This document shows, piece by piece, positions 4,002 to 23,666 of a stretch of 64,000 nt of DNA. This DNA comes from Nitrospirota bacterium. GTDB lineage: Bacteria > Nitrospirota > JACRHL01. The stretch's first letter is position 1, and every line of letters starts with the position of its first letter. The stretch covers positions 62,001-126,000 of the forward strand of contig JACRHL010000019.1 in NCBI GenBank assembly GCA_016212085.1. The letters are read 5' to 3'. A program made the position numbers and the translations under genes. The notes under the pieces were generated by a model. The model was not told the origin of the DNA, ran no database searches, and worked only from the letters and a program-made list of their open reading frames with translations.

Positions 4002-4666
4002 CTTGTCCTCTTAATCTCCTAGACTTGCTCCATGATAGAAAGCCTAGAAGGTTAAGATGACACATTGTGTTCCAGGTAACCAGTCAGTCGACCGAGAGTA
4101 GGCGGCTTCGGATCAGGTCCGTCGATTTCGTGGATAGGGCGAAAGGCACCACGACGGCATCACTCACGCCGGATATCACCAACCCGTTTCAACCCCCTCT
4201 TGGCGGAACCAGTCCGCACGGGGGAGCCCTCCTGCCCCCTCTGGACCTTCCCTACACCGACTACCTGGTGTGCGTCACGATCGAGATCGAAAGCGACGTG
4301 GGGAGCGACCGTTACGACCTGGAGTTCCAACTGACCCCGTCCTACAAGGAACACTGGGGCTTCCCCCTGTGGGATGGGCTGATGGGCATCTAGGGCCCGT
4401 TGACCCAAAGCCCATATGGACAGCGCGAAGCCCAACACCCACCCGGCCCGCCGTGGGGCGCCAGCTTCCGGGAGACGTTGGGCTTCATTGCATTCTGCCC
4501 AACCTACCCCATCCGGCCCGGCGTCCGCCACCCCACCCCCCGTAGGCCTCGGATTTTTCGTCGGATCAAGGCGGAACGCGCAAACGACCGCAGGCGTGGC
4601 AGCGCCACGTCGAGGATCGTTTGCAAAGTGACAACGCGGAGCCCGGCGGAAAAGCCGTGGCCGGTG
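4002..4666. other. intergenic stretch after the AT-rich island
   Basis: Apart from the doubtful 4067-4393 frame, this stretch returns to GC-rich sequence with no convincing gene. It contains an inverted repeat GTTGGGC (4477-4483) / GCCCAAC (4497-4503) followed by CTACC. This resembles the GTAGGTTGGG-type hairpin repeats that are common between genes in proteobacteria. No tRNA or attachment-site duplication was found at the island edges. Confidence 0.5.
4067..4393 (+). CDS. hypothetical protein (108 aa), doubtful
   Basis: An open frame with a GTG start directly after an in-frame stop. No clear ribosome-binding site is visible. The second half (LDLPYTDYLVCVTIEIES, then YDLEFQLTPSYKEHWGF) alternates like real beta strands and reads as protein; the first half is less convincing. 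No family is recognised. It lies 65 bases after the RloC-like gene, and its composition is between that of the island and the host. It may be a partner gene of the island, a remnant of a longer gene, or not coding. Confidence 0.35.
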   Translation: MFQVTSQSTESRRLRIRSVDFVDRAKGTTTASLTPDITNPFQPPLGGTSPHGGALLPPLDLPYTDYLVCVTIEIESDVGSDRYDLEFQLTPSYKEHWGFPLWDGLMGI

Positions 4667-20461: not shown

Positions 20462-20983
20462 ATGGATAGCACACCGCCCTCCCCCTCCCCTGTCGTCAAA
20501 TTCCTAACGGCGGCACTGCCCGCGCTGGGGGCGTTCGTGGCCATCCTGGGCGCGGCGCTCATCACCCGCTCGGTGATCGGCGGCCCCGTGCTGCCGCTGG
20601 TGGTGGCCTCCATGGGCGCCTCGGCGGTGCTGCTGTTCTGCGCCGCCGAAAGCCCCCTGGCGGCCTGGTGGCCGTTCTTCGGCGGGCACATCTGCTCGGT
20701 GCTGGTGGGGGTGGCGGCCGCCCGCTGGGTGCCGGACATGGCGCTGGCGTCCGCCGTGGCGGTGGGCGGGGCCATCGTGGCCATGCGCCTGCTGGGCTGC
20801 ATGCACCCGCCGGGGGGCGCCGCCGCCCTCACCGCCGTGGTGGGCGGGCCCGCGGTGGCCAAGGCGGGCTTCTACTTCCTGCTGGTTCCGGTGGGCATCA
20901 ACATGGTGGCGCTGGCGCTGCTGGTGCTGCTGTTCCGGCGCGCCGAGGCGGCCCTGGGGGCGCGGACGCTCAGACGATGTTGA
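20462..20983 (+). CDS. HPP-family integral membrane protein
   Basis: 173 residues, four predicted membrane helices (about 13-35, 42-62, 76-110, 138-160) and the family signature HPPGGA at about 119-124. Some HPP proteins act in nitrite transport in cyanobacteria and plant plastids; in most bacteria the role is unknown. The ATG at 20462 follows the extended -10 promoter by about 60 bases. The 3' end overlaps the convergent nsrR gene by 14 bases, so the two mRNAs are complementary at their ends. An NsrR-like operator in its promoter suggests induction by nitric oxide. A link to nitrite or NO handling is inference. Confidence 0.85.
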   Translation: MDSTPPSPSPVVKFLTAALPALGAFVAILGAALITRSVIGGPVLPLVVASMGASAVLLFCAAESPLAAWWPFFGGHICSVLVGVAAARWVPDMALASAVAVGGAIVAMRLLGCMHPPGGAAALTAVVGGPAVAKAGFYFLLVPVGINMVALALLVLLFRRAEAALGARTLRRC

Positions 20984-21401
20984 GCAGGGGTGACAGGCGC
21001 TTGTCGTTCTTCAGCACGTCCGCCAGCGTGTAGCCGTCCAGCACCTTCAAGAAACTCTCCTGGGCATGGCCCAGCACCCCCTTGATGATGCACGCGGCGG
21101 TGATGGGGCAGGTGTCCGTCTCCTTGTCGAAGCACTCCACCAGGTTGAAGGTCTCCGTGCGCCGCACCACCTCGCCCAGGGATATCTGCGCCGGGGGGCT
21201 GGCCAGGCGCAGGCCGCCGTGCTGGCCGCGAAAGGTGCTCACGTAGCCGCGCTTGCCCAGGCCGTGCACCACCTTCACCAGGTGGTTGCGGGAGATGGAA
21301 TAGGCATCGGCGATCTCGCTGATGGTGACCAGCCGCTCCGGGTTGAGGCCCAGGTAGATCAGCACGCGGATCGAATAGTCGGTATGGAGTGTCAGCTGCA
21401 T
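20970..21401 (-). CDS. nsrR: Rrf2-family NO-sensing repressor, NsrR-like
   Basis: 143 residues starting MQLTLHTDYSIRVLIYLG, very like E. coli NsrR (MQLTSFTDYGLRALIYM). Winged helix with recognition region YSISRNHLVKVVHGLGKRGYV and wing GQHGGLRL. Three Cys at 90, 98 and 104 (ECFDKETDTCPITAAC) are positioned as the Fe-S ligands of NsrR, and the C-terminus FLKVLDGYTLADVL is also family-like. NsrR represses NO-detoxification genes until its Fe-S cluster is nitrosylated. The start was moved seven codons in from the longest frame to match homologues. It is convergent with the HPP gene and divergent from the globin gene; both neighbours have NsrR-like sites. Confidence 0.9.
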   Translation of the reverse strand: MQLTLHTDYSIRVLIYLGLNPERLVTISEIADAYSISRNHLVKVVHGLGKRGYVSTFRGQHGGLRLASPPAQISLGEVVRRTETFNLVECFDKETDTCPITAACIIKGVLGHAQESFLKVLDGYTLADVLKNDKRLSPLLNIV

Positions 21402-21614: not shown

Positions 21615-21637
21615 ATGATACATGTTATTGACATCTT
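21615..21637. promoter_or_regulatory. weaker second NsrR-like half-matching site
   Basis: ATGATACAT (21615-21623), five bases, TGACATCTT (21629-21637). The 9+5+9 layout and the outer bases fit the longer NsrR consensus, but the two arms are not good inverted copies. It overlaps the -35 box of the globin promoter. It may be a secondary operator or chance. Confidence 0.25.
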
Positions 21638-21656
21638 TCGCCCGCTCCAATAACAT
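21628..21656 (+). promoter_or_regulatory. sigma-70 promoter of the globin-reductase operon
   Basis: TTGACA (21628-21633, perfect -35), 17-base spacer and TAACAT (21651-21656, 4 of 6). The predicted start near 21663 gives a leader of about 120 bases before the ATG at 21787. The downstream part is covered by the operator at 21655-21671. Confidence 0.65.
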
Positions 21657-21671
21657 TCATTTCAAATACAT
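21655..21671. promoter_or_regulatory. NsrR operator over the globin promoter
   Basis: ATTCATTTCAAATACAT matches 15 of 16 fixed positions of ATGYATTTNAAATRCAT; only the third base differs. The second half-site is perfect and the first is 7 of 8. It overlaps the -10 box and the predicted start point, the classical position for repression. The encoded NsrR-like protein is adjacent. Confidence 0.7.
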
Positions 21672-21786
21672 ATTACGGCGTCGCGCCGTCGCCAGCGTTC
21701 ACCACACGCCCCGCCGGACACCCGGCGGGGCGGTTTACGGGAACGGCCAGGGGCCGCCCCATAACCTACGAACGGGAGAATTCGAG

Positions 21787-22704
21787 ATGAGTGGATTGGC
21801 ATTGATCGCAACCCTGGGCTTCGGCGGGCTGGTCCTGTACGGCATCGCCCTGGGCATCCGTGGCGCGATGACGCCGTCGCCCGCATACATGCAGGGCGTG
21901 GGCCCCACCTCGCGCAGCAAGGGCGGCGCCGTGGCCGCCCCGGCCGCCGCCGCCCCCAAGTCGGTCTACGAGCAGATCGGCGGCGAGGCCGCGGTGAACG
22001 CCGCCGTGAACATCTTCTACAAGAAGGTGCTCGCCGACGACCACATCTCCCGCTTCTTCGAGGGCGTGGACATGGACAAGCAAGCCGCCAAGCAGAAGGC
22101 CTTCCTGACCATGGTCATGGGTGGCCCCAACAACTACTCCGGCAAGGACATGCGCGAGGGCCACAAACACCTGGTCAAGATGGGCCTCGACGACTCCCAC
22201 TTCGACCGCGTGGTGCAGCTCCTGGGTGAAACCCTCCTGGAGCTGCACGTGCCCGCCAGCCTGATCGGCCAGATCGCCGCCGTGGCCGAGTCCACCCGCA
22301 ACGACGTGTTGAACCGCAACCCCAAGGAGGACCCCCAGATGAGCACCGTTTACGACCAGATCGGCGGCGAGGCCGCCGTCAACGCCGCCGTGGACATCTT
22401 CTACAAGAAGGTGCTCGCCGACGACCACATCTCCCGCTTCTTCGAGGGCGTGGACATGGACCGGCAAGCCGCCAAGCAGAAGGCCTTCCTGACCATGGTC
22501 ATGGGCGGCCCCAACAACTACACCGGCAAGGACATGCGCGAGGGCCACAGGCACCTGGTCAAGATGGGCCTCGACGACTCCCACTTCGACCGCGTGGTGC
22601 AATTGCTGGGTGAAACCCTCACCCAGTTGAAGGTACCCGCCGCCCTCATCGGCCAGATCGCCGCCGTGGCCGAGTCCACCCGCAACGACGTGCTCGACCG
22701 CTAA
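21787..22704 (+). CDS. membrane-anchored tandem truncated haemoglobin (two group-I-like globin domains)
   Basis: 305 residues. One membrane helix (about 3-26, LIATLGFGGLVLYGIALGI), an Ala/Pro/Ser linker to about 57, then two truncated-globin domains (about 59-176 and 187-304) that repeat with a period of 128 residues. Each has Phe-Tyr at B9-B10 (NIFYKKVLAD / DIFYKKVLAD), the CD Phe (RFFEGVDM), the GGPNNY turn and a proximal-His candidate in EGHKHL / EGHRHL. Truncated globins bind O2 and NO; several oxidise NO to nitrate. GGGAG precedes ATG 21787. A second start with AAGGAGG and ATG 22339 lies in frame between the domains. The reductase gene follows after 23 bases. Two full tandem domains on one anchor are unusual for this family. 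Confidence 0.9.
   Translation: MSGLALIATLGFGGLVLYGIALGIRGAMTPSPAYMQGVGPTSRSKGGAVAAPAAAAPKSVYEQIGGEAAVNAAVNIFYKKVLADDHISRFFEGVDMDKQAAKQKAFLTMVMGGPNNYSGKDMREGHKHLVKMGLDDSHFDRVVQLLGETLLELHVPASLIGQIAAVAESTRNDVLNRNPKEDPQMSTVYDQIGGEAAVNAAVDIFYKKVLADDHISRFFEGVDMDRQAAKQKAFLTMVMGGPNNYTGKDMREGHRHLVKMGLDDSHFDRVVQLLGETLTQLKVPAALIGQIAAVAESTRNDVLDR
21961..22696 (+). repeat. tandem 384-bp repeat inside the globin gene
   Basis: Bases from about 21961 to 22312 are repeated from about 22345 to 22696 with a period of 384 bases (128 codons). Long runs are identical, including third positions, for example CAGATCGGCGGCGAGGCC at 21973 and 22357. The copies differ mainly at the start of each domain and near the end (CTGGAGCTGCAC against ACCCAGTTGAAG). 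This points to recent duplication or continuing gene conversion. Confidence 0.9.
22324..22341 (+). promoter_or_regulatory. internal ribosome-binding site and in-frame start within the globin gene
   Basis: AAGGAGG (22324-22330), eight bases, then ATG (22339-22341), in frame at codon 185. It is the best Shine-Dalgarno in the whole island. Translation from it would give a soluble one-domain globin of 121 residues, the canonical truncated-haemoglobin length. The same bases encode the inter-domain linker NPKEDPQ. This suggests two former genes fused by loss of the first stop codon. Confidence 0.6.
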
Positions 22705-22727: not shown

Positions 22728-23666
22728 GTGCCGAGCATCACCTTCGAGGGCCACCGCTACCCGGCCAACCCCGGCGAAACGATCCTCGACGCGCTGCTTC
22801 GGCACGGCGCCCTGATGCCCTCCAAATGCAAGACCGGCTCCTGCCGCACCTGCATGGTGCGGGTGGTGGCCGGCACCCCGCCGCCCGCCGGCCAGAAGTC
22901 CCTCAAGGACACCCAGGCGGCGCGCGGCTTCATCCTGCCCTGCGCCTGCGCGCCGCTGGACGACATCACCCTGGCCCACGTGCACGTGGCCGACCACGAG
23001 GTGACGCTCACCGTGGCCGGGCGGCACGAGCTGGGGCCCGGCGCCGTGCGCCTGGTGCTGCGCAGCCCGGAGCCGTTCCGCTACCGCCCCGGCCAATACG
23101 TGAACCTGGTGCGCCCGTTCGACGGGCGGGTGCGCAGCTACTGCCTGGCCAGCGCCCCGGACGAACACGATCTTCTGGAAATCCACGTGGCGCGCACGCC
23201 GAACGGCGACATGAGCCGCTGGCTGTGCGACGATCTCCGCGAGGGTGAGCCGGTGGGCTGCTACGGCCCCGCGGGCGACTGCTTCTACCTGCCCAACGAC
23301 ATCCGGCGCCCGCTGCTGATGGTGGGCATCGGCACCGGCCTGGCGGGCATCCACGGCATCTTGCAAGATGCCCTGAACCACGGCCACCAGGGGCCCATCC
23401 ACCTGTTCCACGCGGCGGAGCCCGGCGCCCACTACCTGGGCGGGGAGCTGCTGGCGCTGGCCGGGCGGCTGCCCCGCCTCACCTACACCCCTTGCGGCGC
23501 CGAGCCCGCCGACATGGCCCAGGCGGTCAAGGCCCACCGGCCGGACCTGGCCGGCTGGCGCGCCTATCTGTGCGGCGCCCCGGCGGGCGTGAAGGCCATG
23601 CAGAAGACCGCCTTTCTGGCCGGGGCCGCCATGGCCGACATCTATCAGGTGGCCTTCGGCGGCTGA
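22728..23666 (+). CDS. 2Fe-2S / FAD / NAD(P)H oxidoreductase (probable globin reductase)
   Basis: 312 residues. An N-terminal plant-type 2Fe-2S ferredoxin domain has Cys in SKCKTGSCRTCMV plus a fourth Cys about 30 residues on (LPCAC). A ferredoxin-reductase-type FAD domain follows (YRPGQYVNLV, then RSYCLAS as the flavin motif), then an NAD(P)H domain with GIGTGLAGIHGI and LCGAPAGVKAM. The order matches oxygenase reductases such as those of phenol hydroxylase or methane monooxygenase. No oxygenase is nearby. The globin 23 bases upstream is the likely partner, with electrons passing from NAD(P)H through FAD and Fe-S to ferric haem. GTG 22728 follows AAGGGAGGG. Confidence 0.9.
   Translation: MPSITFEGHRYPANPGETILDALLRHGALMPSKCKTGSCRTCMVRVVAGTPPPAGQKSLKDTQAARGFILPCACAPLDDITLAHVHVADHEVTLTVAGRHELGPGAVRLVLRSPEPFRYRPGQYVNLVRPFDGRVRSYCLASAPDEHDLLEIHVARTPNGDMSRWLCDDLREGEPVGCYGPAGDCFYLPNDIRRPLLMVGIGTGLAGIHGILQDALNHGHQGPIHLFHAAEPGAHYLGGELLALAGRLPRLTYTPCGAEPADMAQAVKAHRPDLAGWRAYLCGAPAGVKAMQKTAFLAGAAMADIYQVAFGG

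Follow-up and report, generated by a model that had tools for sequence, protein, structure and literature searches.

In one of the closest known systems, that of Legionella pneumophila, a group-1 globin gene, glbN, lies next to a ferredoxin-reductase gene under a repressor of the NsrR type, and Rodionov et al. predicted that this NsrR-controlled pair oxidizes NO (PMC1274295). Drawing on the same linkage, a review by Gardner put forward ferredoxin reductases as the source of the electrons (PMC3820574). The locus described here lies in a 64-kb stretch of DNA (hereafter the window). Judged by its genes, it appears to be an NsrR/reductase-type NO-detoxification operon of this known type, i.e. an ordinary context. 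Whereas the Legionella unit has a single soluble globin, the window encodes a predicted membrane-anchored double globin with a candidate internal start (Table 1).

Table 1. Features of the globin locus, and genes for small membrane proteins related to its anchor. Coordinates are those of the window unless a locus is named.
Feature	Coordinates	Strand	Remarks
NsrR-like Rrf2-family repressor gene	20970..21401	-	Divergent from globin gene; ATG at 21401, mechanical ORF to 21422
Candidate NsrR half-palindrome, GATACATGTTATTGACATC	21617..21635	.	3 mismatches to consensus; weak alone
Candidate NsrR site, CATTCATTTCAAATACATA	21654..21672	.	3 mismatches to consensus; weak
TM-globin-globin gene	21787..22704	+	305 aa, single open frame without stop
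Membrane anchor	21787..21933	+	Homologous to 50-57-aa single-TM proteins encoded after trpB; N-out, C-in predicted
Globin domain 1	21964..22317	+	aa 60-177; Tyr78 B10, Gln99 E7, Gln103 E11, His126 F8; aligned to 3aq5
Linker NPKEDPQ	22318..22338	+	Equals stop-to-start junction minus one base; disordered in model
Shine-Dalgarno-like AAGGAGG	22324..22330	+	8 nt ahead of in-frame ATG 22339
Candidate internal ORF for a soluble globin of 121 aa (domain 2)	22339..22704	+	Tyr206, Gln227, Gln231, His254 (full-length numbering); start context and MSTVY N terminus
2Fe-2S ferredoxin/FAD/NAD(P)H reductase gene	22728..23666	+	PF00111, PF00970, PF00175; adjoins most related globin genes
~52-aa single-TM genes	L018:1501-1653, 1867-2040 (G000:C23 near 147 kb); L014:1501-1659, 1954-2112; L019; L020

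A predicted membrane-anchored double globin between an NsrR-like gene and a reductase gene

The preliminary description of this DNA had reported a membrane helix, a linker, and two truncated globins in one frame, and our analysis bears this out. The 305-aa product contains two stretches matching PF01152 (Bac_globin, E 1.3e-40, Pfam), preceded by a TM segment (aa 4-22) with a mean Kyte-Doolittle hydropathy of 2.14. A longer start for this gene, at 21622, is not favored because Met 21787 is where homology of the N terminus to small TM proteins sets in. Both domains have the features of group-1 truncated hemoglobins (trHbN/GlbN), i.e. a Bac_globin profile, a 2/2 globin fold, a proximal His F8, and a polar distal site. 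As assessed by alignment to 3aq5, TyrB10, GlnE7, GlnE11, and HisF8 are present in both domains, and these residues are invariant in our alignment A2. In a structure model of the 305-aa protein, two confident 2/2 globin folds are joined by a disordered linker (aa 179-185) and preceded by a low-confidence N terminus. The best PDB matches of the modeled domains are all group-1 truncated hemoglobins (trHb1), from Tetrahymena (3aq5), Chlamydomonas (1dly), and M. tuberculosis (HbN, 1idr), with TM-scores to the target of 0.82-0.88; these proteins share the fold and the heme-pocket residues but consist of one domain without an anchor. The two domains are 92.1% identical at the DNA level over 354 nt (118 codons) and 91.5% identical as proteins, the 28 nucleotide differences corresponding to a dS of 0.17 and a dN of 0.06. 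No further globin domains were found in the 2.70-Mb draft genome (23 contigs). Automatic annotation would be expected to give just one long "truncated hemoglobin" for such a gene.

The divergent repressor gene matches PF02082 (E 1.4e-36), and its best NCBIfam model is NsrR, with a score (146 bits) below the 182-bit cut-off; the encoded protein has three Cys in ECFDKETDTCPITAAC. Divergently oriented orthologues of this gene stand beside globin genes in Mariprofundus and others. An HPP-family membrane protein gene (PF04982, 20402-20983) converges on this repressor gene. Potential operators were scanned for with the consensus gATGyAT-N5-ATrCATc, taken from PMC1274295. At three mismatches, two of the four matches in the 64 kb (2.5 expected by chance per window) fall in the one intergenic region between the repressor and globin genes. 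The downstream reductase is the probable electron donor to the globins. By analogy with described systems, the most likely role of the locus is NO dioxygenation, both in the cytoplasm and at the membrane, and we hold this with good confidence.

A candidate internal start at the second globin domain

The preliminary description had placed AAGGAGG at 22324-22330, eight bases before an in-frame ATG at 22339 from which a 121-aa product could be made; positions and size are as it claimed, and this ATG corresponds to the canonical N terminus of domain 2. As a background set, we used 443 kb of the same genome (the window and 20 further stretches) containing 269 likely ORFs and 1,565 internal in-frame ATGs. 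AAGGAGG lies 5-9 nt upstream of only three of the 1,565, ATG 22339 included, and at least seven contiguous anti-SD bases are found at ten. Local folding energy (-30 to +30) at ATG 22339 is -8.9 kcal/mol, whereas internal ATGs average -21.1 and a set of 41 likely true SD-led starts averages -15.3; no other ATG among the 1,565 combines a Shine-Dalgarno (SD) match of six or more bases with folding energy as weak as this. Of the 207 other codon positions compared within its own ORF, none is as weakly structured as this region. The energy needed to open it (7.8 kcal/mol) is near that of the annotated start (8.2), the ORF median being 13.6 kcal/mol. The combination of SD and start codon inside the frame is above background, as expected for a gene with an internal in-frame start.

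A caveat is that the peptide K-E-D, in the codon usage of this genome, yields AAGGAGG often, almost by default. Because the motif is nearly automatic, the weight rests jointly on its position, the Met, and the weak structure. On this combination of sequence features, the internal start at 22339 looks genuine, and we have moderate confidence that the short 121-aa form is made. Stand-alone relatives have a comparable RBS and N terminus, e.g. AAGGAGG-AAGAT-ATG and MSSVYEQ, and their RBSs, when read as protein, give KEEDM or LEEPM.

Origin of the linker and of the membrane anchor

The 21-nt linker reads AAC CCC AAG GAG GAC CCC CAG, flanked by CGC on the domain 1 side and by ATG on the domain 2 side. 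The sequence at 22315-22323 is CGCAACCCC, and the domain junction within 22250-22400 contains CGCAACCCCAAGGAGG. A junction consisting of TAA, an RBS spacer, and ATG gives the observed linker once a single T is lost. Domain 1 ends in VLNR, which is a natural globin C terminus (domain 2 and the Mariprofundus globins end in VLDR and a stop), and domain 2 starts with MSTVYDQIGGEAAVNAAVD (MSTVYDQ), resembling the MSTVYEQLGGEAAINAAVD (MSTVYEQ) of the stand-alone Mariprofundus genes L023 and L048. Fusion of adjacent genes is supported because the linker spans a natural C terminus to a natural start and one lost base of a TAA suffices. This agrees with the preliminary description, which had read NPKEDPQ as a translated SD region and had proposed two neighboring genes fused by stop loss. 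The fusion itself is very likely real. Its most economical history, as suggested by the junction, is loss of the stop codon between adjacent copies, which we regard as probable.

In the domain tree, which has few columns and many open forks, the two domains are sisters (SH-aLRT 99) inside a clade that comprises globins of Zetaproteobacteria and of the same bacterial family. As sisters, they point to recent duplication or conversion rather than to the union of two old diverged genes, and we rejected the joining of anciently diverged genes, with the proviso that gene conversion could mask an older origin. Two genomes of the same family (G001 and G003) have a single soluble globin each and nothing more; duplication, anchoring, and fusion were thus probably later events in the lineage of the window.

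The N-terminal 49 residues resemble single-TM proteins of 50-57 residues with the consensus GI..G.KGA..D.PPYMQGEG, and these small membrane proteins of the same bacterial family are thus the probable source of the anchor; identity to one of them (G000:C23:146977) is 54% over aa 1-52 (E 1.5e-10). These homologues are encoded after a trpB-like gene, with two tandem copies in this genome, and also occur in three same-family genomes. No Pfam model matched the anchor or the small single-TM proteins. There is no Lys/Arg before the anchor helix and there are Arg/Lys after it, a charge pattern that predicts a cytoplasmic globin part (N-out, C-in). The ~52-aa family (PPYMQGEG motif, ending in AA) is present in all four genomes of this bacterial family examined, likewise without a Pfam match, and its genes stand in tandem after the trpB-like gene where flanks were read (L018 and L014).

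Separate and fused globin genes in other bacteria

At eleven Mariprofundus/Zetaproteobacteria loci, a soluble globin gene is followed by an adjacent TM-globin gene. In the flanking DNA examined, nearly all of these pairs are accompanied by an NsrR-like gene, which is divergent, and by a reductase gene downstream. The Mariprofundus loci with soluble globin, TM-globin, and reductase genes (L023, L029, L031, L034, L036, L039, L040, L048, and L059) resemble the window in that soluble and anchored trHb1 lie side by side, with the NsrR-like gene divergent and the reductase downstream. They differ in that the two globins are encoded separately, with the soluble one first, the reverse of the order in the window, and in that the TM segment is unrelated to that of the window. 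In six loci (L023 at 4385-4393, L029, L031, L033, L034, and L036), the soluble gene ends in a single TAA, and two further codons separate this stop from the ATG of the TM gene, which is in the same frame and nine bases on from the first base of the TAA. The two genes are in frame at other distances in L039, L040, and L127, and out of frame in L048, L059, L092, and L126. Because of the latter four, the arrangement is not conserved, and we rejected programmed read-through of the stop that separates the two globin genes in Mariprofundus. At five Methylobacter-type loci (L057, L073, L076, L083, and L087), two globin genes and reductase genes, a duplicated globin-reductase pair, lie on opposite, facing strands with an NsrR-like gene on one flank.

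TM-globin-globin proteins are encoded in three other genomes (L021, L126, and L127). Two came from a scan of 74 Mariprofundaceae genomes, in which a soluble gene and a fused TM-globin-globin gene were found together twice (G467/L126 and G430/L127), whereas the TM segment of L021 is of a third kind, and the genome that encodes it also has a separate gene for a soluble globin (L046/L154). All three share with the window the domain order in one frame, but their domain 2 is without Met or SD, their TM segments are other ones, and their genomes have an extra soluble globin gene; in the genome of the window, where Met and SD are kept, such a gene is absent. The preliminary description had known of no truncated hemoglobin with this layout and had suggested searching for the same architecture and for split genes. 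The search recovered both the three genomes above and the two-gene Mariprofundus loci, and among 396 genomes of the phylum no second one with this exact gene or layout. Uniqueness of the TM-globin-globin order must be given up, since L021, L126, and L127 have it; what stands is the junction, none of the 15 other fused ORFs having a strong SD and a Met at the canonical domain start. The layout is therefore recurrent, and the start-bearing junction is distinctive. No description of a TM-tandem trHb1 was found in the open-licence literature.

Twelve loci in Gammaproteobacteria MAGs (L022, L024-L028, L030, L032, L035, L037, L038, and L043) encode untethered trHb1 proteins with two or three globins, in which the domains are likewise in tandem in one frame, but there is no TM helix (Kyte-Doolittle 0.0-0.6, two checked). 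They have a conserved LAG[FY]T-EEKAA-like linker and an internal Met that is not conserved. A conserved internal start was rejected for these tandems, the Met of EEKAAM often being Q, R, K, or I and the SD weak in most. In the flanks examined at the 12 loci, neither an NsrR gene nor a reductase gene was found. In another family of the phylum of the window, globin matches lie inside frames of 957-962 aa (L104 and L105, from G205 and G136), possibly a multidomain globin protein.

A model for two products and its alternatives

We propose that, in an NsrR-type NO-detoxification operon, the globin gene was duplicated, fused, and given a membrane anchor. The TM segment of a small membrane protein would have been set before one globin copy, and the adjacent, RBS-bearing copy would then have been fused to it by loss of the first stop, a course of events that we find likely. 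Ribosomes starting at 21787 would produce a double globin anchored in the membrane and facing the cytoplasm, and those starting at 22339 would, somewhat less surely, produce a free 121-aa globin. Both forms would draw electrons from the downstream reductase and use bound O2 to oxidize NO to nitrate, in the cytoplasm as well as at the membrane, just as the soluble and the anchored globin that Mariprofundus encodes in two genes would do. The reading as a whole, an anchored double globin and a free globin from one gene of an NO-detoxification operon, is one that the sequence data lead us to favor with reasonable, not high, confidence. That a single gene with a retained RBS at its fusion junction supplies both forms and replaces the two-gene set of the relatives, its anchor coming from an unrelated small membrane protein, we judge to be evenly balanced. 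The locus would be a clear example of the way in which two products may survive a gene fusion by means of an internal start. At least three apparently unrelated anchor sequences and repeated domain duplications suggest a recurrent strategy, in which NO-scavenging globins are tethered at the inner membrane face while a soluble pool is kept.

Counting against two products is the fact that a recent fusion would retain the old RBS as a relic, used or not. The tethered double globin might then be the sole product, SD and ATG being remnants of the fusion and the gain being two hemes per anchor. We consider this rather unlikely, although the fused proteins of L021, L126, and L127 have been kept without an internal start, a relic RBS would hardly have had time to decay at a dS of 0.17, and K-E-D codons give the motif by default. 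Moreover, domain pairs are sisters within many tandem proteins, so repeat duplication itself seems favored. A mere relic accords poorly with the start-like canonical N terminus, with structure at the internal start that is unusually weak for a gene of 69.5% GC, and with a genome devoid of another soluble globin gene when the relatives have one. The fusion could also be a sequencing or assembly error, a T missing from TAA in what are truly two genes, TM-globin and then soluble (the other order from Mariprofundus). The loss of exactly one base would convert a plausible stop and RBS junction into the observed linker, and the assembly is a draft of 23 contigs. However, the domain copies differ at 28 sites, and are hence resolved rather than collapsed, neighboring long genes are intact, and real fusions exist in other genomes; we regard such an error as very improbable.

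With respect to function, the globins might bind or deliver O2 at the respiratory membrane, or handle peroxide, instead of dioxygenating NO. The heme-site residues are compatible with O2 binding in general, and the relatives are often microaerophilic iron oxidizers, for whose globins O2 binding has been discussed (PMC3770913). This alternative appears improbable to us in view of the NsrR-like neighbor and the linked reductase, a pairing that has been proposed for NO oxidation.
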